Both the position numbers and the translations under genes were made by a program. DNA of 36,273 nt. It comes from Candidatus Erwinia dacicola (GTDB taxonomy: Bacteria > Pseudomonadota > Gammaproteobacteria > Enterobacterales > Enterobacteriaceae). Under the pieces are notes generated by a model. The model made no database searches and was not told the origin of the DNA. It worked only from the letters and a program-made list of their open reading frames with translations. The stretch's first letter is position 1. The number at the start of each line of letters is the position of its first letter. Below are positions 2,680-33,215 of the stretch, piece after piece. Location: NCBI RefSeq assembly GCF_001756855.1, contig NZ_MAYS01000108.1, positions 1 to 36,273 on the forward strand, written 5' to 3'.

Positions 2680-3702
2680 TTATTCGAATTCAGGACGCAT
2701 ATCGTTAAGCGTCGTCATGAATCCCTGGTGGTATTCTTCACCGAGCTTTTCAGCCATGGCGTTGATCTCATCTTCGGCACGCTTAAACATCGCCTTGGCA
2801 TCTGCTGCGGATGAATCCAGGCTGTTCAGAATTGCGCTAACGTATTCCCGTGCTTCTTCGCGTTCAGAGTCAGAAACCACCGTCAGGCTCTGCTGCTCAT
2901 CATCAACTACTGAATACTCGCCGGTGATAACTGCTGCGTTATCCTGGCTCAGGCCAGCTTCCGCGCGTTCATCCATCACAACAGCTTTTTGCAGTTCGAT
3001 AGAGACAGGCAGGTATTTGAACAGGCGGCGGATCACCGTCTTTTTTGCCATTTCGTCGAAGTGGTCAACCCACGGTCCGCTGCTGCCGGCTTTGCTCAGG
3101 GCACGTACTTTTTCAACGTCTGCCCGGCTCATCACTTCGAACTGGACGCCGCCATCTTTCAGGCGGGCCACTGCGTATACATGGGTCAGTTCGCCGCGGT
3201 CACCGGTTTCGCAAGGTGAGTGCTCGAGCGTTTCTTCCAGGCCGTATGAATAGCTGAATTTGTCGTTTACATGGACGGTGCGCGCTGAGATGCTCAGGAT
3301 CTGCCCGGAGCGGCGCGCAAGGTCAATCATCCCGCGATAGCCGATGATCAGCTGAGCTTCTGTCGATACCGTTTCCCAGCGGCCATTAATTTTCTGGCGC
3401 TTGTCGAACGGAATCAGGTACGCGTGTCCCAGTGCGCCCCCCGGTTCCAGTCCGAGCTGAGCGCATTGCATAATTGCACCGAGGAAACTGGCCTGGTCAC
3501 ATGCTGCCAGTTTTGGAACTTTGCGGATCTCGGTAGTGGCGATGCGCGCCAGGCGGTCGGCTGTCATGTGCTTTGGAAGAGCCAGCGCCATCTGAGCCTT
3601 GATTCTTGGATCCGCGAGCAACCCGGCCAGCGTGCTAGGTTTCTCGTTATGCTTTGCAACCTGGTTTCCGGTTGCTGCTGCCTTAAGTGCAGTGGTAGAC
3701 AT
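2680..3702 (-). CDS. recT: RecT-family single-strand annealing protein
   Basis: Recombinase that coats single-stranded DNA and anneals complementary strands, working with the adjacent exonuclease in phage recombination and replication. The 340-residue protein has the RecT core at about 25-255, with family signatures such as ALPKHMTADRLARIATTEIR, QCAQLGLEPGGALGHAYLIPF, IIGYRGMIDLARRSG and the W-x-D-x-F-D-E-M-A-K-K-T-V-x-R-R-L-F-K-Y segment near 210. An acidic, variable C-terminal tail (260-340) is typical and may contact single-strand-binding protein. The start has a strong AAGGAG site. It lies 9 bases downstream of the YqaJ-type exonuclease gene, the usual two-gene recombination module. All features look intact. 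Confidence 0.96.
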   Translation of the reverse strand: MSTTALKAAATGNQVAKHNEKPSTLAGLLADPRIKAQMALALPKHMTADRLARIATTEIRKVPKLAACDQASFLGAIMQCAQLGLEPGGALGHAYLIPFDKRQKINGRWETVSTEAQLIIGYRGMIDLARRSGQILSISARTVHVNDKFSYSYGLEETLEHSPCETGDRGELTHVYAVARLKDGGVQFEVMSRADVEKVRALSKAGSSGPWVDHFDEMAKKTVIRRLFKYLPVSIELQKAVVMDERAEAGLSQDNAAVITGEYSVVDDEQQSLTVVSDSEREEAREYVSAILNSLDSSAADAKAMFKRAEDEINAMAEKLGEEYHQGFMTTLNDMRPEFE

Positions 3703-5132: not shown

Positions 5133-5147
5133 TTACCCGAAAGGTAA
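5133..5147. promoter_or_regulatory. Predicted repressor operator (perfect) upstream of PL
   Basis: TTACC-cgaaa-GGTAA is a perfect copy, extended to a 17-bp palindrome by flanking A and T. It lies between the repressor terminator and the candidate PL promoter. Confidence 0.75.
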
Positions 5148-5204: not shown

Positions 5205-5795
5205 TTATTCTTGCGTTTTACCGTTCTGAACAATCACAAAATCGACGTAGCTCTCAATCTTGCTCTTCTCGCTCTCAGGTAACAATGCGTAGCGGGCCCG
5301 GTCGTAATGGATGGTCGACGGGTCCCGGGGATGGATGAGCAGTTCATAGCCCCGGTGCCCGAACGCGCTGGCGATCGCCTCCAGGGTGGAGATAGAAACG
5401 CTAACCTCATTGTTCAGCATGCGGTTGATTGTCGCCTGGGCAACGCCGGACGCTTTCGACAACTTACCCTGAGATGACAGGTCGCGGTTGTTCTGCATCC
5501 ATGCTTCGAGATTATGTGCCGCCAGCTGTCCGGTATCGGAAGGGGTGATCTCCTCCTGCGGAATGGCAACAGCGGATAATGAGTGGTCGACGTCCAGCCA
5601 GTTCGAAGGCTTGTTAGCCGCCTTCTCAATCTTGCGCGCTACCGTGTCGCCGACAACCTTCTGCCCGCGGGCCCAGCGGTTCACCAGGTTTGCCTGAGTT
5701 CCCAGTTTTTCCGCCAGACGAGTCTGCACCCCGTTAAAGTCACAGTCGATGATATCGTTAATATTCTGCCTGCGGATATCCTGAATACTTTTCAT
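5205..5795 (-). CDS. Prophage repressor (CI-like) with two HTH domains and no protease domain
   Basis: Predicted lysogeny repressor. The 196-residue protein carries two helix-turn-helix units of XRE type: one at about 24-45 (TRLAEKLGTQANLVNRWARG) and one at about 109-129 (GKLSKASGVAQATINRMLNN). The first resembles CI-type N-terminal domains, the second an HTH_3 antitoxin/regulator domain. No LexA-type S24 peptidase is present: there is no Ala-Gly cleavage site and no Ser-Lys dyad, so classical RecA-assisted self-cleavage is not expected. It is divergent from the Cro-like gene across a 154-base region with three operator-like palindromes, the standard immunity arrangement. I infer that it binds TTACC-N5-GGTAA throughout the phage. 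The start has only a weak ribosome site, which fits low-level expression. Confidence 0.85.
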   Translation of the reverse strand: MKSIQDIRRQNINDIIDCDFNGVQTRLAEKLGTQANLVNRWARGQKVVGDTVARKIEKAANKPSNWLDVDHSLSAVAIPQEEITPSDTGQLAAHNLEAWMQNNRDLSSQGKLSKASGVAQATINRMLNNEVSVSISTLEAIASAFGHRGYELLIHPRDPSTIHYDRARYALLPESEKSKIESYVDFVIVQNGKTQE

Positions 5796-8118: not shown

Positions 8119-8133
8119 TTACCTTGCAGGTAA
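8119..8133. promoter_or_regulatory. Predicted repressor operator (perfect) upstream of the resolvase gene
   Basis: TTACC-ttgca-GGTAA, followed immediately by TACAAT. It is one of two perfect copies in the 117-base gap between the P-like and RuvC-like genes. Confidence 0.72.
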
Positions 8134-8198: not shown

Positions 8199-8663
8199 AT
8201 GATAGCAATTTTAGGGATTGACCCGGGATGCAGCGGGGCACTGGTTCTCGTCACGGAACAGGGCGGCTACATCGACCATCTGCCAATGCCAACCATCAAG
8301 GTCGGAACAAAGTCCAGGGTGAACGGCGCAGCGGTAGCTGCATGGGTTCGGCAGTACGGAATCACTCATGCGTACCTTGAGCAGGTCGGTGCAATGTCAG
8401 GGCAGGGAACGGCGAGCATGTTCACGTTCGGGCATGCAGCTGGCGTAGCGGAGGGGATCCTCCAGGGACTCAACATTCCGTACACGCTGGTAACGCCGCA
8501 GGCCTGGAAGAAGTCAGCCGGGCTTATCGGCAGCGACAAGGACGCAGCGCGCAGCCGGGCCATTCAGCTTTACCCGGAACTCAGGGCGCTGGATGCCAAA
8601 GCGAAAGGCCAGGCCATCGCGGATGCGCTGTTAATCGCAAGGTTCGGGATCGGCGTTAAATAA
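8199..8663 (+). CDS. RuvC-like Holliday junction resolvase
   Basis: Predicted structure-selective endonuclease that would resolve branched phage DNA before packaging. The 154-residue protein has the RNase H-like RuvC fold: IDPGCSGAL with D8, E61 after THAYLEQVGAM, a central helix (GTASMFTFGHAAGVAEGIL), K104-K105, then KGQAIADALLIARFG carrying D142. These match the acidic residues of the RuvC active site. The ATG follows a GAGAGGTAA ribosome site that is also half of an operator. It lies behind its own repressor-controlled promoter, downstream of the replication genes, a common position for a phage resolvase that functionally replaces Rus or RusA. Length is typical. Confidence 0.9.
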   Translation: MIAILGIDPGCSGALVLVTEQGGYIDHLPMPTIKVGTKSRVNGAAVAAWVRQYGITHAYLEQVGAMSGQGTASMFTFGHAAGVAEGILQGLNIPYTLVTPQAWKKSAGLIGSDKDAARSRAIQLYPELRALDAKAKGQAIADALLIARFGIGVK

Positions 8664-11939: not shown

Positions 11940-11954
11940 TTACTAATGTGGTAA
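11940..11954. promoter_or_regulatory. Predicted repressor operator overlapping the terminase start (one mismatch)
   Basis: TTACT-aatgt-GGTAA ends on the first base of the small terminase ATG at 11954. Together with the preceding site it places repressor directly at the head of the packaging genes. Confidence 0.6.
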
Positions 11955-12550
11955 TGATGCCCGCGACACCAAAAACCCACAAACGCAGATCAACGCAATA
12001 TAAGCCTCTTACAGCGATGCAAGAGGCTTACTGCCAGTCCTACATTAAGACACCCGAAAACCAGTCTCAGGCGGCGATTGACGCAGGATTTTCGCCTAAT
12101 ACGGCAGCCGTCAAAGCCAGCGTGATGATGCGAGACGAAAGAATCCAGAAACGAATCGCTGAATTGATGGAGGAGCGCAACAAGCGAAACCGCGTCAGCG
12201 CTGATTACGTCCTCATGCGCCTGGTGGAGATCGACCAGATGGATGTGCTGGATATCCTGAACGACGACGGCAGCCTGAAACCGATCCGCGAGTGGCCGAA
12301 AATCTGGCGTACCACGCTCAGCGGGTTCGACCTGTCCTCAACCATCATGAACATGAACGAGGATTCGATAGAGACCATCCTCAAAAAAATCAAATGGCCG
12401 GACAAGGTGAAGAACCTCGAGCTGATTGGTAAGCACGTCGACGTCAACGCGTTCAAAGAGCGCCTGGAGGTTTCCGGCACTGTCACCATCGCCGAACGCA
12501 TGGCAGCCGCGCGCCGCCGCGTCAAAGAGCAGGCTGGTGGTGAAGAATGA
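11954..12550 (+). CDS. Terminase small subunit
   Basis: DNA-recognition subunit of the packaging motor. The 198-residue protein has the terminase_2 pattern: a basic N-terminus, then TAMQEAYCQSYIKTPENQSQ with AIDAGFSPNTAAVKASVMMR forming the helix-turn-helix (about 18-70), a helical central region (RVSADYVLMRLVEIDQMDVL) and a C-terminal helix for oligomerisation and contact with the large subunit. ATG codons at 11954 and 11957 are the likely starts; a GTG at 11948 is also in frame. The operator covers the region where a ribosome site would be, and the site itself is weak. Its stop overlaps the large-subunit start (ATGA), the usual coupling. Confidence 0.9.
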   Translation: MMPATPKTHKRRSTQYKPLTAMQEAYCQSYIKTPENQSQAAIDAGFSPNTAAVKASVMMRDERIQKRIAELMEERNKRNRVSADYVLMRLVEIDQMDVLDILNDDGSLKPIREWPKIWRTTLSGFDLSSTIMNMNEDSIETILKKIKWPDKVKNLELIGKHVDVNAFKERLEVSGTVTIAERMAAARRRVKEQAGGEE

Positions 12551-14022
12551 CAGCCGCAGCCATGTCACCGGAAGAGCAGCTCGTCGAGGATATTGCTTCG
12601 TTCACGTATGACCCGCTGGGCTATGCGCTGTATGCGTTCCCGTGGGGCGAGGAAGGAACAGAGTTGGCACACGCCACCGGGCCGAGAAATTGGCAGGCTG
12701 ACGCATTCCGCGAGATACGCGATCACCTACAGAACCCCGTGACGCGTCACCAGCCGCTGATGCTGGCCCGCGCATCCGGACACGGTATAGGCAAATCCGC
12801 TTTCATTTCGATGCTGATCAACTGGGGCATGTCCACCTGTGAGGACTGCAAGGTGGTGGTGACCGCCAACACCGACAACCAGCTGCGCACCAAGACCTGG
12901 CCAGAAATCATCAAATGGTCGAACCTGGCCATAACGAAAGAGTGGTTCACCTGCACCGCCACGGCGATGTACAGCAACGATCCTGGGCACGACAAACGCT
13001 GGCGCGCTGACGCAATCCCGTGGTCTGAGCACAACACAGAGGCGTTCGCCGGGCTGCACAACGAGCGCAAGCGCATCATCGTGGTATTCGACGAAGCCTC
13101 CAACATTGCAGATCTGGTGTGGGAGGTTGCCGAAGGTGCGCTGACGGACGAAGACACTGAAATCATCTGGGTGGCGTTCGGGAACCCGACGCGCAACACC
13201 GGGCGTTTCCGCGAATTTTTCCGTAAGTACAAACACCGCTGGAAGTGCGCGCAGATTGATTCACGCACCGTGGAAGGCACGAACAAACAGCAACTCCAGA
13301 AATGGGTGGACGACTACGGCGAGGACAGCGACTTCGTTAAAGTCCGTGTGCGGGGGATCTTCCCTGACGCGTCTGAACTCCAGTTTATCCCGACCGGGCT
13401 CACTGACGAGGCGATGAAGCGCGTAGTGACCGCCGGGCAGGTGGCGCACGCACCGGTGATTATCGGCGTCGACCCGGCATATTCCGGCGTGGATGACGCG
13501 GTGATATACCTGCGGCAGGGGCTGCACAGCAAAGTACTCTGGACCGGAAATAAGACCACCGACGATCTGATTATGGCGAAGCGCATCGCTGACTTTGAGG
13601 ATCAGTACCAGGCTGACGCGGTGTTTATCGACTTTGGCTACGGTACCGGGCTGAAGTCCATCGGTGATGGCTGGGGCCGGACGTGGCAGCTAATTCCGTT
13701 TGGTGGAGGCTCGACCGATCCGCAGATGCTCAACAAGCGCGGCGAGATGTTCAACAGTTGCAAAACGTGGCTGAAGCTCGGCGGCGCGCTGGACGATCAG
13801 GAGACAGCTGATGACCTTTCGGCAGCAGAGTACAAAGTCAGGGTGGACGGCAAGATCGTCATTGAGCCGAAGGAAGATATCAAAGAGCGGTTAGGCCGCT
13901 CGCCGGGCAAGGGTGACGCGCTGCTACTGACTTTTTCTTTCCCGGTTACGAAGCGCCTGCGCATCCCTGGGCAGGAGAGTCAGCAGGGTAAGGCGGTCAC
14001 AGAGTATGACCCGTGGAAATAA
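12547..14022 (+). CDS. Terminase large subunit (ATPase and nuclease)
   Basis: Packaging motor: an N-terminal ATPase drives DNA into the prohead and a C-terminal nuclease cuts it. In this 491-residue protein the Walker A is SGHGIGKS (77-84), Walker B is IIVVFDE (177-183, with D182 and catalytic E183) and the coupling motif is AFGNPT (210-215). The RNase H-like nuclease carries D309 in IIGVDPAYSG, D362 in FIDFGYGTG and D457 in GKGDALLLTF. All motifs are intact. It follows the small subunit with a four-base overlap. The stop is followed by a bidirectional hairpin and a 1.4-kb interval without plus-strand genes before the portal operon, which is unusual because terminase and portal are normally adjacent. 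Confidence 0.96.
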   Translation: MTAAAMSPEEQLVEDIASFTYDPLGYALYAFPWGEEGTELAHATGPRNWQADAFREIRDHLQNPVTRHQPLMLARASGHGIGKSAFISMLINWGMSTCEDCKVVVTANTDNQLRTKTWPEIIKWSNLAITKEWFTCTATAMYSNDPGHDKRWRADAIPWSEHNTEAFAGLHNERKRIIVVFDEASNIADLVWEVAEGALTDEDTEIIWVAFGNPTRNTGRFREFFRKYKHRWKCAQIDSRTVEGTNKQQLQKWVDDYGEDSDFVKVRVRGIFPDASELQFIPTGLTDEAMKRVVTAGQVAHAPVIIGVDPAYSGVDDAVIYLRQGLHSKVLWTGNKTTDDLIMAKRIADFEDQYQADAVFIDFGYGTGLKSIGDGWGRTWQLIPFGGGSTDPQMLNKRGEMFNSCKTWLKLGGALDDQETADDLSAAEYKVRVDGKIVIEPKEDIKERLGRSPGKGDALLLTFSFPVTKRLRIPGQESQQGKAVTEYDPWK

Positions 14023-14025
14023 CAA

Positions 14026-14045
14026 AGCCCGCGCATCGGCGGGCT
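14026..14045. terminator. Hairpin between terminase and the SPFH-tail gene, possibly a bidirectional terminator
   Basis: AGCCCGC-GCATCG-GCGGGCT. On the minus strand it is followed by TTGTTATTT and could terminate the leftward gene. On the plus strand the following bases (GATTG) make a poor U-tract. Confidence 0.5.
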
Positions 14046-14049
14046 GATT

Positions 14050-14061
14050 GTGACATGTCAC
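14050..14061. repeat. Dispersed palindrome, copy 2 of 3 (GTGACATGTCAC)
   Basis: A perfect 12-bp palindrome just beyond the terminase terminator and eight bases from the end of the leftward SPFH-tail gene. Identical to the copy at 32154. Confidence 0.55.
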
Positions 14062-14068
14062 GGCGTTA

Positions 14069-14482
14069 TTAGCGTTTTCCCGCTTCAAGTATTGGCAGGT
14101 TTGCTTCGGTTGGAACATAAATAACCTGGCTCTTATTCTGTTGTAACCCGTCAATCCACAGATAGCGAAGGTATTCTTCGTTGTTGCGGAGGCTATCACC
14201 AATAATCTGGTTTGCCTTCGCTACTCCTTTGGCACGCTCAATTTCAGCGTCAGCTAACATGCGTGCAGATTCTTTTTTTGCGAGCGCTTCTTGTACAGCG
14301 ATCTGCCTGTCTTACGTTGCTCGAGCCAAGGAAGCCTTCCCGGCAAGATTGCTGCTCCATACGTTGTAATATGGGCATCCTGCCATGCAAAGAGATATGA
14401 GAACTGTAAAGAAAAATACGACATGAAGAACGATCGTTCCCCATTTAATTTCGCGAGCATTATCGTCGTAATATCGACTCAT
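14069..14482 (-). pseudogene. Small membrane protein with SPFH/prohibitin-type tail, interrupted by one stop codon
   Basis: One frame of 138 codons runs from MSRYYDDNAREIKWGTIVLH to the end LPILEAGKR with a single internal TAA at 14314-14312. The first part has a transmembrane segment (TIVLHVVFFFTVLISLCMAG) followed directly by C-P-Y-Y-N, which might be a lipid-modification site. The part after the stop (DRQIAVQEALAKKESARMLA, AEIERAKGVAKANQIIG, YLRYLWIDGLQQN, VIYVPTEANLPILEAG) has the coiled-coil pattern of SPFH-domain C-termini. A CAA (Gln) to TAA change would explain the stop. AAGGTG lies upstream of the ATG. Relatives are common in enterobacterial prophages with unknown role. Unless the stop is read through, only a 56-residue membrane stub is made. 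Confidence 0.75.
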
Positions 14483-14494
14483 GATTATCACCTT

Positions 14495-14519
14495 AAAAAA
14501 ATGCCCGGACGAACCGGGC
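14495..14519 (-). terminator. Strong intrinsic terminator at the 3' end of the candidate noncoding RNA
   Basis: On the minus strand GCCCGG-TTCGT-CCGGGC is followed by A and seven T. It has no coding gene upstream on that strand for about 0.8 kb, so it most likely ends the structured RNA described here. Confidence 0.85.
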
Positions 14520-14606
14520 GAATGGAAGCAAGGGTCTACGGAGTGCCTTCCTTGGCGGGTGATGCAGGGTTTACAGCGCAACGTCATCGGAATGGCGCTC
14601 TGCTGT

Positions 14607-14647
14607 AAAAAGGGCGGTGGTCAGAAGTGGGAGCAACTGCCACCGCC
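14607..14647 (-). terminator. Possible internal terminator within the candidate noncoding RNA
   Basis: An 8-bp stem GGCGGTGG/CCACCGCC (minus strand) with an internal AGT/ACT extension is followed by CTTTTT. It could produce a shorter RNA of about 0.7 kb ending near 14607, or be a structural domain with partial termination. Confidence 0.5.
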
Positions 14648-15312
14648 AAAGCTACACGCATTGCCTGGTACTGCCGTATCACGGTCCTAAGGCGTGATTG
14701 GGTTGTGGTGGCCGGTGCGCCGGCGATAGCGTTTGTCGCGTGCTAATAGCAACTTTCACCACAACGGAAAGAGCACTCATGACTCGCATCATGTGGCGCA
14801 ACCCCATGGCAGGGAGTCGAACCCTACAAATGCTCTTACCTGTTGTGTGCCTGTCTTTCCAGGCTGTCAGCAATTCGGTAACACGGCTTGCTTGCCGTGG
14901 CGTCTGGGCTGTTTAGACCCTTCAGCAATACGGGATATACCCGTTCAAGGTTATCGCCCACCCCCGCTAGGGTGTGGTGTTGTGTTTCCACAACATTGAG
15001 AGCACTGCTGCCGGCGTTCACAGTTTTCGGGCAGTCGACGACCTACACCCTAAGTACTCTCATCGTTATGGCCTCGTCTCTTCCGAGGTGTCACACCGTA
15101 TCGCCACGATGGTGAATCGTCATGTCCGTGCATACCGAGAGTGACTTGCACATTCCGGCTACCTGCTCAGGGGAAGTTGTCAAGGACCCTGCCAGACCGC
15201 TACGACACATGTGCCATATGCCGTACTGCTCACACCTGGAAGCGCACTCACCAGTTTTGATTTAGCGACAAGACCTCACCGAACCGATATCAAAGTGCGC
15301 TTTCATGTTGTG

Positions 15313-15327
15313 TTACCTGAAGGGTAA
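15313..15327. promoter_or_regulatory. Predicted repressor operator (perfect) at the noncoding RNA promoter
   Basis: TTACC-tgaag-GGTAA. It overlaps the whole -10 (15326-15321) and the expected start of the minus-strand promoter, so repressor would silence the RNA in the lysogen. Confidence 0.75.
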
Positions 15328-15349
15328 TAATTACAGTTAATTATGTCAA
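15321..15349 (-). promoter_or_regulatory. Sigma-70-like promoter for the candidate noncoding RNA
   Basis: Minus strand: perfect -35 TTGACA (15349-15344), 17-base spacer, -10 TACCCT (15326-15321). The expected start is near 15314, just before the 5'-most stem. Confidence 0.68.
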
Positions 15350-15417
15350 TACACTACGTTAAATAATCCGTATATGGTTAAATTGGTAATAATTTAATCG
15401 TGTGTGAGGTTATCGCT

Positions 15418-15624
15418 ATGTGTATCGGCAGCAAGCCATCAGTGCCAGCGGCACCAGAAGTTCAGGCCGCACCTCAGGAGCAGGACGCCGCTGTGGTCAG
15501 TGCGCGCGATGACGAAGAGCGCCGCCGCCGTGCTGCTGCCGGTCGTAACTCGACCATGCTCACCGGTGCCCAGGGCGACACTTCCGCCGCAAATACCAGC
15601 GGTAAAACGCTGCTCGGTCAGTAA
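15418..15624 (+). CDS. Small conserved protein preceding the portal gene (68 aa)
   Basis: A 68-residue protein (MCIGSKPSVPAAPEVQAAPQ, then DDEERRRRAAAGRNSTMLTG and KTLLGQ). A proline/alanine-rich N-terminus, basic R-rich middle and TLLGQ end are characteristic of the small protein encoded just before head-tail connector genes in many podoviruses; its function is not established. The ATG at 15418 with GAGG upstream is preferred over a codon at 15400. It is the first gene of the rightward morphogenesis operon after the noncoding interval. The MC start could suggest lipid modification, but there is no signal sequence. Confidence 0.72.
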   Translation: MCIGSKPSVPAAPEVQAAPQEQDAAVVSARDDEERRRRAAAGRNSTMLTGAQGDTSAANTSGKTLLGQ

Positions 15625-15638
15625 CGGAGCGCGCAGAG

Positions 15639-17312
15639 ATGGCGGAAACCGAAAAAGAGCGGCTGCTGAAGCAGCTCGCACAGCTGAAGAATGAGCGCAC
15701 ATCGTTCGAGCCGCACTGGCGCGACCTGAGCGACTTTATCAATCCGCGCGGTTCCCGCTTCCTGACGTCTGACGTTAACCGTGACGATCGCCGCAACACC
15801 AAAATTGTTGACCCTACCGGTTCACTCGCTCAGCGCATTCTCGCCAGCGGCATGATGTCCGGCATCACCAGTCCTGCGCGCCCGTGGTTCAAGCTGGCAA
15901 CGCCTGACCCTGACATGATGGATTACGGCCCGGTGAAGGTCTGGCTGGAAGTCGTGCAGCGCCGCATGAACGAAGTGTTCAACAAGTCGAACCTGTATCA
16001 GTCTCTGCCTGTCATGTACGCCAGCCTGGGCACTTTCGGCACTGCCGCCATGGCTGTGCTGGAAGATGACCAGGACGTGATTCGCACAATGCCATTCCCG
16101 ATTGGCAGCTACTACCTGGCGAACAGCCCGCGAGGCAGCGTCGACACCTCATTCAGGCAGTTCTCCATGACCGTGCGCCAGCTCGTGCAAGAGTTTGGCC
16201 TGGACAATGTCAGCGCGTCCGTGAAGAGCCAGTGGGAAAGTGGATCGTATGAAAACTGGATCGAAGTAAACCACTGCATCACGCCAAACATCAACCGCGA
16301 CAGCGGGAAGTTGGACAGCAAGAACAAGCCGTATCGCTCTGTCTATTTCGAGACTGGCGGCGACTCCGACAAGTTGCTGCGTGAATCTGGTTTCGATGAA
16401 TTCCCGATTCTGGCACCGCGCTGGGAAGTTAACGGCGAGGACGTATACGCGTCTTCCTGTCCAGGAATGCTGGCGCTCGGGCAGGTTAAGGCGCTTCAGG
16501 TTGAGCAGAAACGTAAAGCTCAGCTCATCGACAAAGCTACAAACCCGCCGATGGTTGCGCCAACTTCACTGAAGAATCAGCGCGTTTCTCTGCTGCCTGG
16601 TGACGTGACGTATCTCGACGTGCTGAGCGGCCAGGACGGTTTCAAACCTGCGTACCTGGTAAACCCGAATACCGCCGACCTGCTGGCTGACATTCAGGAC
16701 ACCCGCCAGACCATCAACAGCGCCTACTTTGTCGACCTCTTCATGATGCTGCAAAACATCAACACCCGCTCAATGCCGGTGGAGGCGGTGATCGAGATGA
16801 AGGAAGAGAAGCTGCTGATGCTCGGCCCGGTGCTGGAACGCCTGAACGACGAAGCGCTCAATCCGCTTATCGACCGCGTGTTCTCCATCATGGCGCGCAA
16901 GAACATGCTGCCGCCACCGCCAGACGTTATGCAGGGAATGCCGCTGCGCATCGAGTACATCTCCGTTATGGCGCAGGCGCAGAAATCTATCGGCCTCACC
17001 AGTCTGTCGCAGACCGTTGGCTTCATCGCTCAACTGGCTTCAGTCGGTAAAACGGAAGCGCTCGACAAGCTCGACGCGGATCAGGCTATCGACGCGTTCT
17101 CCGAAATGTCCGGCGTATCGCCAACAGTCATCGTTCCGCAGGAGCAGGTGCAGCAGATTCGAGAAGACCGCGCCAAACAGCAGCAGGCAGCTCAGGCTCT
17201 GGCAATGGGTCAGGCCGTAGCGCAGGGCGCTAAGACGCTCAGCGATACGCAAACCGCAGATCCAAGCGCGCTGACAGCAATCACTAACGCAGTTGGAGCG
17301 ACGCAGCAATGA
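15639..17312 (+). CDS. Portal (head-tail connector) protein
   Basis: Forms the dodecameric ring at one capsid vertex through which DNA passes and to which terminase and tail dock. The 557-residue protein matches T7-type head-tail connectors: LKQLAQLKNERTSFEPHWRD and LSDFINPRGSRFL near the N-terminus, RILASGMMSGITSPARPWFK, PVMYASLGTFGTAAMAVLED, the wing/stem core FPILAPRWEVNGEDVYASS, and the C-terminal helix with VEAVIEMKEEKLLMLGPVLE. The Gln/Ala-rich C-terminal tail (about 500-557) is typical of the variable barrel. GGAG lies upstream of the ATG. Its stop overlaps the next gene by four bases. Length is normal and no lesion is visible. Confidence 0.95.
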   Translation: MAETEKERLLKQLAQLKNERTSFEPHWRDLSDFINPRGSRFLTSDVNRDDRRNTKIVDPTGSLAQRILASGMMSGITSPARPWFKLATPDPDMMDYGPVKVWLEVVQRRMNEVFNKSNLYQSLPVMYASLGTFGTAAMAVLEDDQDVIRTMPFPIGSYYLANSPRGSVDTSFRQFSMTVRQLVQEFGLDNVSASVKSQWESGSYENWIEVNHCITPNINRDSGKLDSKNKPYRSVYFETGGDSDKLLRESGFDEFPILAPRWEVNGEDVYASSCPGMLALGQVKALQVEQKRKAQLIDKATNPPMVAPTSLKNQRVSLLPGDVTYLDVLSGQDGFKPAYLVNPNTADLLADIQDTRQTINSAYFVDLFMMLQNINTRSMPVEAVIEMKEEKLLMLGPVLERLNDEALNPLIDRVFSIMARKNMLPPPPDVMQGMPLRIEYISVMAQAQKSIGLTSLSQTVGFIAQLASVGKTEALDKLDADQAIDAFSEMSGVSPTVIVPQEQVQQIREDRAKQQQAAQALAMGQAVAQGAKTLSDTQTADPSALTAITNAVGATQQ

Positions 17313-18655: not shown

Positions 18656-19642
18656 ATGGCTGTTAAAGGCGTAAATGCGCTGACGCTGGCTGACTGGGCT
18701 AAGCGTACTGATCCAAACGGAAAGGTCGATAAGATTGTCGAACTTCTTTCCCAGACCAACGAAATCCTGACGGATATGATGTTCGTAGAGGGTAACCTTC
18801 CAACTGGTCACCGTACCACCGTTCGCTCGGGGCTCCCGCAGCCTACCTGGCGTTTGCTGAACTACGGTGTGCAACCGACAAAATCAACTACCGTACAGGT
18901 CACTGACACTGTCGGCATGCTGGAGGCTTATGCGGAAGTAGATAAGTCACTGGCAGATCTTAACGGTAACACTGCTGAATTCCGCCTGTCTGAAGATCGT
19001 GCATTCCTCGAAGGCATGAACCAGCAGATGGCTCAGACCCTGTTCTACGGCGACACCAGTGTGAATCCGCAGCAGTTCATGGGCCTGTCATCCCGCTACT
19101 CCACCAAATCCGCAGGCAACGGCCAGAACATTATTGATGCTGGCGGCACCGGCACAGATAACACCTCTATCTGGCTGGTGGTCTGGGGTGAAAATACTGT
19201 GCACGGCATCTTCCCTAAAGGGCAGAAGGCTGGTTTGCAGACTCAGAACCTCGGCGAGCAGACTCTTACCGATGCCAATGGTGGCAAATACCAGGGTTAC
19301 CGCACCCATTATAAGTGGGATAACGGCCTGGCTCTCCGTGACTGGCGCTACGTTGTGCGCATCGCCAACATCGATGTGAGCGATCTGTCAGTGCCTGGTT
19401 CAGCTGCAAATATCGTCAGCCTGATGGTTAAAGCGCTGCACCGCGTCCCTAACCTGAAAATGGGCCGCGCGGTGTTCTACATGAACCGTACCGTTGCCCA
19501 GGTGCTGGATCTGCAATCTCTGGATAAAGCATCTCTGGCTCTGTCCGTAAAAGAGACTGAAGGCGAATTCTGGACCACGTTCCGTGGCATCCCAATCCGT
19601 GAAACCGATGCGATTCTGGAAACAGAAGCGCGCGTTGTTTAA
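18656..19642 (+). CDS. Major capsid protein (HK97 fold, epsilon15/BPP-1 type)
   Basis: Builds the icosahedral shell. The 328-residue protein is similar in length to epsilon15 gp7 and has the family pattern: N-arm MAVKGVNALTLADWAKRTDP, then VELLSQTNEILTDMMFVEGN, RTTVRSGLPQPTWRLLNYGV and the spine-helix stretch FRLSEDRAFLEGMNQQMAQT. Later segments include FYGDTSVNPQQFMGLSSRYS, WGENTVHGIFPKGQKAGL and the C-terminal GEFWTTFRGIPIRETDAI. It lacks the N-terminal delta domain of HK97 and so needs the separate scaffold encoded upstream. A good ribosome site (AGAGG) precedes it. The gene is followed by a strong hairpin, probably adjusting expression relative to downstream genes. Confidence 0.93.
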   Translation: MAVKGVNALTLADWAKRTDPNGKVDKIVELLSQTNEILTDMMFVEGNLPTGHRTTVRSGLPQPTWRLLNYGVQPTKSTTVQVTDTVGMLEAYAEVDKSLADLNGNTAEFRLSEDRAFLEGMNQQMAQTLFYGDTSVNPQQFMGLSSRYSTKSAGNGQNIIDAGGTGTDNTSIWLVVWGENTVHGIFPKGQKAGLQTQNLGEQTLTDANGGKYQGYRTHYKWDNGLALRDWRYVVRIANIDVSDLSVPGSAANIVSLMVKALHRVPNLKMGRAVFYMNRTVAQVLDLQSLDKASLALSVKETEGEFWTTFRGIPIRETDAILETEARVV

Positions 19643-32899: not shown

Positions 32900-33059
32900 A
32901 GCGATCACCTTTGTAGTCAGGATAATCACCACTTCCGACGCCAATCGGGATGGTGGTGAACTGTGCAGGGTTGGCGTAACCGGCTACAAAGGACCCGGCG
33001 CACCTTTCGGTGCCCCCACACAGCCCACCATAGAAACTGGTTTGCTATGTAGCACGCAT
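32897..33059 (-). promoter_or_regulatory. Antirepressor leader with an Icd-like coding remnant and C4-complementary segments
   Basis: This stretch between the C4-type RNA terminator and the bro start holds no intact gene. One segment (32968-32996, minus CCTTTGTAG and ACGCCAA) is complementary both to the C4 loop/tail and to the copy of those motifs at the bro ribosome site (TTGGCGT and CTACAAAGG). Broken frames resemble Icd/Ash-type phage proteins (SMVGCVGAPKGAPGP, then in another frame VAGYANPAQFTTIPIGVGSG and GDYPDYKGDRYD). The order C4, icd-like, antirepressor matches the phage P1 immI arrangement. The icd-like part appears degraded by a one-base loss at CCTTTG. Confidence 0.6.
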
Positions 33060-33150
33060 AAAAAAACCGCTCGCGCGGTATATGCGCCTTTGTAGTAATC
33101 CGGGACGCCAATCCCGGCACTGGATTTTGCCAGTGCCTGATTACTATGGC
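33060..33150 (-). ncRNA. C4-type antisense RNA upstream of the antirepressor
   Basis: Minus strand: AGTAATC (33145-33139) pairs with GATTACT (33100-33094), enclosing two hairpins, GGCACTGG-CAAAAT-CCAGTGCC and CGGGA-TTGGCG-TCCCG shape. A single-stranded ACAAAGG tail follows, then the terminator ACCGC-GCGA-GCGGT with seven T. Layout, size (about 90 nt) and position ahead of an icd-like/antirepressor leader match C4 RNA of phage P1, which represses antirepressor synthesis. The loop TTGGCG and the CTACAAAGG tail are complementary to the downstream leader at 32968-32996. Confidence 0.8.
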
Positions 33151-33172: not shown

Positions 33173-33215
33173 TTACCGTAAAGGTAATTGTTACATGAAT
33201 TTTAGGTAATTACAA
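33173..33215 (-). promoter_or_regulatory. C4/antirepressor promoter region with a perfect repressor operator
   Basis: The operator TTACC-gtaaa-GGTAA at 33173-33187 is perfect. On the minus strand TTGTAA (33215-33210), 17 bases, then AACAAT (33192-33187) is a plausible promoter whose start site the operator would cover. Repressor would thus silence C4 RNA and the antirepressor together. Confidence 0.62.

Follow-up and report, generated by a model that had tools for sequence, protein, structure and literature searches.

The question addressed here is what kind of molecule is encoded between the terminase and portal genes of a prophage of Candidatus Erwinia dacicola. The window, i.e. the whole stretch of DNA analyzed (36,273 nucleotides; contig NZ_MAYS01000108.1), represents an epsilon15-like (Uetakevirus) prophage. 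Pfam recognized the terminase small subunit (11948-12550), a head-tail connecting protein or portal (15639-17312) and a GP7-type capsid protein (18656-19642). The frame at 12547-14022 showed no Pfam match and was named large terminase from the annotation of relatives. On the minus strand between terminase and gp3 lies the unit 14495-15349, which was described in a first-pass annotation as lacking credible genes. Its long frames were indeed found to be overlapping mechanical ORFs, and the core lengths of 44 relatives occupy all three remainders modulo 3 (17/14/13). On these grounds a protein-coding reading of the interval was ruled out. Some public records annotate small hypothetical ORFs within the array. 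A DNA-level packaging element between terminase and portal was rejected as well, because the modules are found at unrelated sites. It was confirmed that 14495-15349 is a noncoding minus-strand unit with a promoter, an operator, an RNA structure of about 0.8 kb and two intrinsic terminators. That a structured, modular RNA is encoded here on the minus strand is regarded as nearly certain.

Promoter, operator and terminators

The promoter (15321-15349, minus strand) consists of a perfect TTGACA -35 element at 15344-15349, a 17-nt spacer and a weak -10 element, TACCCT, at 15321-15326. A consensus promoter scanner reported no promoter in 13500-16500; the -10 hexamer is poor. The -10 element is covered by a perfect copy of the phage operator TTACCN5GGTAA (15313-15327). 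Both the -35 element and the operator had been noted before and both are present, the operator being one of seven perfect copies in the window (5133, 5851, 8119, 8181, 15313, 33173 and 33556), where simple arithmetic predicts about 0.03. The copies at 5133 and 5851 flank an HTH repressor gene (5205-5795, minus strand). All 13 relatives that were taken from the same slot have a perfect operator at a constant distance (plus or minus one base) after the -35 element, which reads TTGACA in nine and TTGACC in four. Elsewhere in the window, the operators at 8119 and 8181, 62 bp apart, are located directly upstream of an ORF starting at 8199. A C4 antisense RNA and isrK were detected at 32949-33136 (minus strand; Rfam, above gathering), with the perfect operators at 33173 and 33556 nearby.

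The RNA was thought to end at strong intrinsic terminators. Both terminators are real. The internal one is a DicF-like hairpin followed by U5 (14607-14660, minus strand; Rfam DicF 22.3 bits, E 0.034), and the final one (14495-14519, minus strand) is formed by a hairpin at 14503-14519 and U7 at 14495-14501. The claim holds only in part, however, since a gene starts at 14482, 12 nt past the last U, which implies that the RNA doubles as the leader of a frameshifted cargo gene. The DicF-like hairpin also raises the possibility of RNA-based immunity or antisense regulation like that of P4/P1 C4 and DicF, in which processed pieces would pair with phage or host transcripts. The hairpin score is below the gathering score of 48 bits, but the array of phage P1 sits in the ban operon, where C1 operators and a 'dicF-like region' are annotated. 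Operator control agrees with such a function and the variable inserts described below could confer specificity. Against this, the strongest conservation seen is structural, and an immunity or antisense function is considered improbable.

A conserved core domain

The core domain (core-1; 15069-15228, minus strand, 160 nt) could be aligned across Uetakevirus, lambdoid phages, P1-like phages and Klebsiella phage KB2. The proposed structure comprises a hairpin (P1), a long imperfect stem (P2), a second hairpin, a third hairpin (P6) and two pseudoknots. A check for covariation among homologues had been proposed and covariation was found in the core: 13 of the 33 pairs changed on both sides among 20 core sequences, and 15 of 33 among 44 sequences, with 77 double-changed cells versus 18.9 in shuffled data (0/500). 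In these 44 sequences 96.2% of the core cells are paired, compared to 24.8-44.1% after sliding the partner. The second pseudoknot is the clearest, UCACC/GGUG being replaced by UAACC/GGUU in L010 while three of its four pairs are altered at once in KB2. The first pseudoknot, GCACAU/AUGUGC, is nearly invariant and was proposed from sequence alone, as five of its six pairs never vary. Unguided RNAalifold recovered the helix of the first pseudoknot together with hairpin two and a portion of the long stem; it found neither the P1 hairpin nor the second pseudoknot and placed other pairs there.

The strand of the RNA is indicated by folding and by base substitutions. The minus strand folds better than shuffled sequences (z -3.31) and the excess is smaller for the plus strand (z -1.42), each with only 20 shuffles. 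In the 44 core sequences read on the minus strand, 193 cells are G-U versus 29 A-C, a bias which argues for selection at the RNA level. The first-pass annotation had suggested that the minus strand encodes an ornate noncoding RNA under operator control, and the covarying core helices support this.

At gathering thresholds no Rfam family matched the core, and lax thresholds gave only unrelated or sub-threshold families. A model of the core (R1) scored 153 bits on the core itself and 9.8 bits on the next best match in the window. An exact core-pattern scan of a collection of 84,980 species yielded 16 stretches, in genera that we take to belong to the Enterobacteriaceae without exception, and at least 120 stretches were obtained from IMG/VR. 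With model R1, matches were found in 3 of 394 Enterobacterales genomes and in 1 of 369 genomes of the class (the window's own genome counted in each); these counts are lower bounds because few candidates per genome were scored. By blastn the whole unit matched 13 of 295 genomes of the family, its own genome included, and 82 of 50,697 phage records, none over more than 80% of its length. Matches were also found in 2162 of 5426 E. coli genomes; among the 40 matches listed, 31 cover 9-16% of the query. Neither core-1 nor the second core type described below (core-2) was found in Qin and e14 of E. coli K-12 (L038, L179).

The module array

Around the core a series of modules was recognized, all on the minus strand. 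A leader hairpin module (15231-15310; AAAGCGCAC...GTGCGCTTCC) lies next to the promoter, and modules of the same kind are found downstream of the core in L006 and L008. On the other side of the core is hairpin-frame module A (14992-15067), recognized by its fold and holding a variable insert. The stretch 14991-15068 has no match in the phage collection other than KB2 (81.8%; one phage under two accessions). A stem at 14998/15061 had been described here as containing a G-U pair on the minus strand only. The stem is real: 14998/15061 is its outer pair, and one of its nine pairs, 15056/15003, is a U-G that reads A-C on the plus strand. The previously noted GAAA tetraloop (14985-14988) belongs to the adjoining hairpin GUUGUG-GAAA-CACAAC at 14979-14994. 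Then follows a module common to phages P1, P7 and D6 (14849-14943), where it is located upstream of tRNA genes; it ends in a hairpin with a GGAAAGAC loop. A BLAST search of 50,697 phage records with 14848-14985 (138-nt query) gave 20 matches, all named as P1 or its relatives, with 74-77% identity over 54-62% of the query, and the P1 copy of this stretch is directly upstream of tRNA-Asn. Hairpin-frame module B (14762-14845) contains a T-arm (14809-14827), also seen at first reading. It is 96.4% identical to a module of CobraSix located between tRNA-Arg and the holin gene, and also matches one E. coli phage at 73.0%. The array continues with a tRNA-like slot (slot 4; 14702-14765, GUUGUGGUG...CACCACAAC), present in a reduced 64-nt form, and with the hairpin AUCACG...CGUGAU (14678-14698).

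Three window modules thus match three unrelated phages, KB2, CobraSix and P1. The idea of one giant fold confined to this slot had to be replaced by that of a mosaic of modules spread over many unrelated phages. Among 136 distinct sequences downstream of the core, the first element is the hairpin frame CAAC..AGAGC in 82 and a different recurrent module in 13. The 170 core-anchored regions contain 77 distinct hairpin modules, at least one being present in 113 of the regions. Their inserts (33-105 nt) form 42 unrelated families, 23 of which are singletons. The same scan found 2-9 modules in shuffled sequence; a narrower scan gave 38 modules in 20 families, and a looser one 721 matches, many of them false. 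The count on the opposite strand (71 versus 77 on the core strand) is no control, because the hairpin arms read alike on both strands. The arms covary, as seen in GAGAGCAT/GTGCTCTC, GAGAACAC/GTGTTCTC and AAGGGCGT/GCGCCCTT. A T-arm is present in 10 of the 77 inserts, against a shuffled mean of 0.02, but in only 5 of the 42 insert families. In 91 arrays, 63 combinations of 29 core, 40 slot-3 and 33 slot-4 types were counted, with 21 arrays lacking a parsed slot 4. Comparison shows that the unit is, as far as can be read from its sequence, a swappable array in which a conserved core is accompanied by a tRNA-like slot and by hairpin frames whose inserts are hypervariable.

A mosaic make-up, together with the reduced slot 4 and the frameshifted cargo gene, would also suit a functionless graveyard of tRNA and mobile fragments, or an element acting at the DNA level. 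However, helices are kept by compensatory changes in core-1 as well as in core-2, the excess of G-U over A-C reflects selection as RNA, and the operator is kept in 13 of 13 relatives. An RNA without function, or a DNA-level role, is held to be very unlikely.

tRNA-like modules and sister arrays

In relatives, slot 4 has the form GTTGTGG...CCACAAC and comprises 57 distinct modules in 30 families. In some of these relatives it is occupied by a true tRNA-Arg(TCT). Many slot-4 modules contain hairpins with complementary loops, such as GCUGAU/AUCAGC, or GUCGA/UCGAC in KB2; parsing succeeded for 25 of the 56 modules on the core strand, and five complementary loop bases were present in 19 of the 25. 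Six loci were run against the Rfam tRNA model (cut-off 29 bits). The slot-4 module of L081 (1077-1203, minus strand) scored 43.9 bits and has 64 nt at the anticodon where the model has 13, and that of L143 (1309-1433, minus strand) scored 29.7 bits with 60 nt in place of 7. The ordinary-sized module of L041 also matched, and those of L096, L126 and L138 did not reach the cut-off. Within -1000 to +2000 of the core, ARAGORN called tRNAs at 21 of 169 loci, near-duplicates included; all 21 share the strand of the core, and the opposite strand has none. The L081 and L143 modules are absent from these ARAGORN tRNAs. For slot 4 of the window no tRNA was called by either ARAGORN or Rfam RF00005. A strict T-arm was present in only 5 of the 57 modules, and both arms in three, so that the link with tRNA is clear for some slot-4 modules and a mere resemblance for most. 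C73 was found in 44 and an encoded CCA in 22 of the 56 core-strand modules, many of which are close relatives. A charged 3' end resembling that of tRNA-His (G-1:C73 plus CCA) may be considered as a weak lead.

In P1, Bas78, Magnus, a Vibrio phage and, among the matches listed, many IMG/VR contigs, array modules of the kind described above are preceded by a different core, core-2. Examples are L175 (about 2870-3000, the P1 ban leader), L184, L185 and L186, and 69 distinct sequences occur among the matches listed. Following a hairpin, core-2 reads GCA AAC GA., and all 69 listed sequences have exactly ten codons plus a stop. These tags represent 14 peptides, including ANDDVVLMAA (16), ANDDLMMVAA (15), ANDEQFLAVA (12) and ANDDLMLMAA (8). 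One peptide ends in P and all others in A; the search pattern itself specified codons one and two and part of codon three, the remainder being free. In the pseudoknots after the tag, changes on both sides affect 12 of 21 pairs (58 cells versus 15.3 in shuffled data), although by one measure, further pair types, they do not surpass shuffled data (263/500), and only 71.6% of the cells of the last helix are paired. An arm of a hairpin module lies within 420 nt after core-2 in 46 of 78 cases. Both cores are present in 39 of 309 loci, and P1 has them at the two ends of one leader. With the Rfam tmRNA models, the best scores on sister arrays were 27.3 bits versus a cut-off of 47 (tmRNA_permuted) and 24.7 versus 50 (alpha_tmRNA). 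In the window no core-2, no tag reading frame and no Rfam tmRNA match was found. The core-2 tag domain may be a more striking lead than the core-1 unit itself.

Genomic setting and possible function

Arrays and modules occur in a variety of settings. They are found in operator-controlled units of epsilon15-like phages, directly after CI-like or HTH repressor genes in lambdoid phages (L005, L006, L008, L010, mEp460 and 2H10) and between Q and the lysis genes (HK629, CobraSix). In Magnus a tRNA cluster is nearby, and in a Vibrio phage tRNA-Arg and tRNA-Met are the neighbours. The stretch around the modules of Bas78 and ep3 has no annotated tRNA. At E<=0.01, a 41-nt module junction alone has matches in 200 of the 50,697 phage records. 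Other small RNAs were seen in the same neighbourhoods. STnc100 was detected near the Magnus tRNA cluster (L185, 4569-4783; 52.9 bits, gathering 47), with a weaker match in the P1 ban operon (L175, 4060-4179; 33.4 bits). An RprA-like match lies right after the core in a Stenotrophomonas phage record (L006, 3188-3307; 50.2 bits, gathering 70).

Release of the repressor would allow transcription from the leftward promoter, giving an RNA of about 0.85 kb that would fold into independent domains and end mostly at the intrinsic terminators. Judged by the position of the gene, part of the transcription may read through into the swappable cargo gene. The RNA itself could act in trans by imitating tRNA or tmRNA, with ribosomes, tRNA-processing enzymes or tRNA-directed defences as candidate targets, and its inserts may vary under an arms race. 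Action in trans on translation or on tRNA enzymes is suggested by the tRNA- and tmRNA-like modules of sister arrays, by embedded tRNAs, by control through the operator and by the hypervariability of the inserts. We consider the chance that a derepression-induced RNA acts in this way to be a little short of even. Against it, the window has core-1 rather than the tag-bearing core-2, and its slot 4 is reduced.

The abutting cargo genes and the leader position, on the other hand, would fit a cis-acting antiterminator or attenuator. The put RNA of phage HK022 by itself makes RNA polymerase pass terminators, and core or modules might similarly modify the polymerase or switch structures, leading to terminator bypass into the cargo operon. 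The cargo gene of the window (14069-14482, minus strand) is frameshifted compared to its intact relative in L012, which encodes a protein of 138 amino acids without Pfam match. Of 125 regions, 67 have a strict same-strand terminator after the core (34 have one on the opposite strand, and 3 after a single shuffle of each region). Both a terminator and an RBS-linked ORF are present in 59 regions, and in 47 of these the terminator comes before the first such ORF. When RBS-linked starts were sought up to 45 nt after the U-tract, 46 of the 48 tallied were located 9-16 nt after it, leaving no room for a promoter. Genes right after the U-tract fit a cis-acting leader equally well, and arrays directly after repressor genes also favour one. 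The 47 distinct cargo proteins fall into 10 clusters, one of them a one-residue fragment. Pfam matches were obtained for three of eight representatives (Phage_gp49_66, Tad2-like of Thoeris anti-defence, HNH) but not for the other five; PADLOC matches among the cargo proteins were weak. However, modules are also present in the Magnus tRNA island, beside the tRNAs of the Vibrio phage and after Q. Furthermore, epsilon15 has lost most of the core and retained terminator and cargo, which is evidence against a requirement for the core in cis. A fixed cis function is hard to reconcile with hypervariable inserts and embedded tRNAs, and put, in the part of the source cited here, has only 73 modelled nucleotides in two stem-loops (PMC9378689). 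A cis-acting leader, the strongest competitor of action in trans, is rated as rather unlikely.

Returning to action in trans, it is tentatively proposed that the arrays belong to a new class of combinatorial phage RNAs, although we would not expect this wider proposal to hold in full. In such RNAs, tRNA or tmRNA scaffolds would carry hypervariable anticodon or insert payloads, shuffled among temperate and lytic phages, and would divert ribosomes or bait tRNA-directed defences at takeover; the sister arrays would be phage tmRNAs with their own degradation tags. No description of these modules or tags was found in Rfam 15 or among the open-licence papers that the searches listed. If the proposal is correct, enterobacterial phages, including P1, share a widespread RNA system that so far has no name in these sources. 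It would combine tRNA mimicry, tmRNA-like tagging and shuffled inserts, and would offer a direct handle on the carriage of tRNAs by phages and on the roles of giant phage RNAs. The modules are defined sharply enough for deletion and testing in phages such as P1.

Comparison with known phage RNAs

The size and prophage setting of the unit had suggested kinship with the giant RNAs GOLLD and ROOL. These RNAs are, according to the portion of PMC12286853 cited here, large, structured, encoded by phages or prophages and often located near tRNAs or holding them. The array is likewise large, structured and phage-encoded, with tRNAs nearby or embedded. However, the covariance-model check that was run showed no Rfam match to either RNA in the window, at gathering or at E<=5, and none at E<=1 in 10 related loci, by which membership was excluded. 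Furthermore, the array has another core, many swappable modules and hypervariable inserts in several frames, and it is reshuffled rather than kept as one conserved fold. Kinship in a looser sense, as a similar self-assembling scaffold, is also regarded as very unlikely.

DicF and P4/P1 C4 resemble the array in that a DicF-like terminator hairpin is present in an operator-controlled phage operon, but the hairpin of the window stays below the Rfam gathering score and the array is far larger. Like HK022 put, it is a structured RNA that precedes terminators in early leaders of phages; HK022 is absent among the phage matches listed. Compared to put, described as a short two-stem element of an early operon, the leader position in lambdoid phages fits, the core is larger (160 nt) and has proposed pseudoknots, and the settings outside early leaders do not fit.

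The likeness to tmRNA (ssrA) lies in the sister arrays, with a 10-codon tag between a hairpin and pseudoknots, and in some tRNA-like modules without a normal anticodon arm. The window differs from tmRNA by having no tag domain, and the sister arrays stay below Rfam tmRNA gathering; an Ala-type acceptor domain was not recognized. The list of phage tmRNAs in the cited part of PMC4131195 names only mycobacteriophages and Bacillus phage G, and no enterobacterial phages. Phage tRNA genes, finally, are approached by slot 4, which is a real tRNA-Arg(TCT) in some relatives and passes the Rfam tRNA cut-off in two enlarged modules. Slot 4 differs from them in that the anticodon loop is replaced by variable RNA, or the arms by two hairpins with complementary loops.
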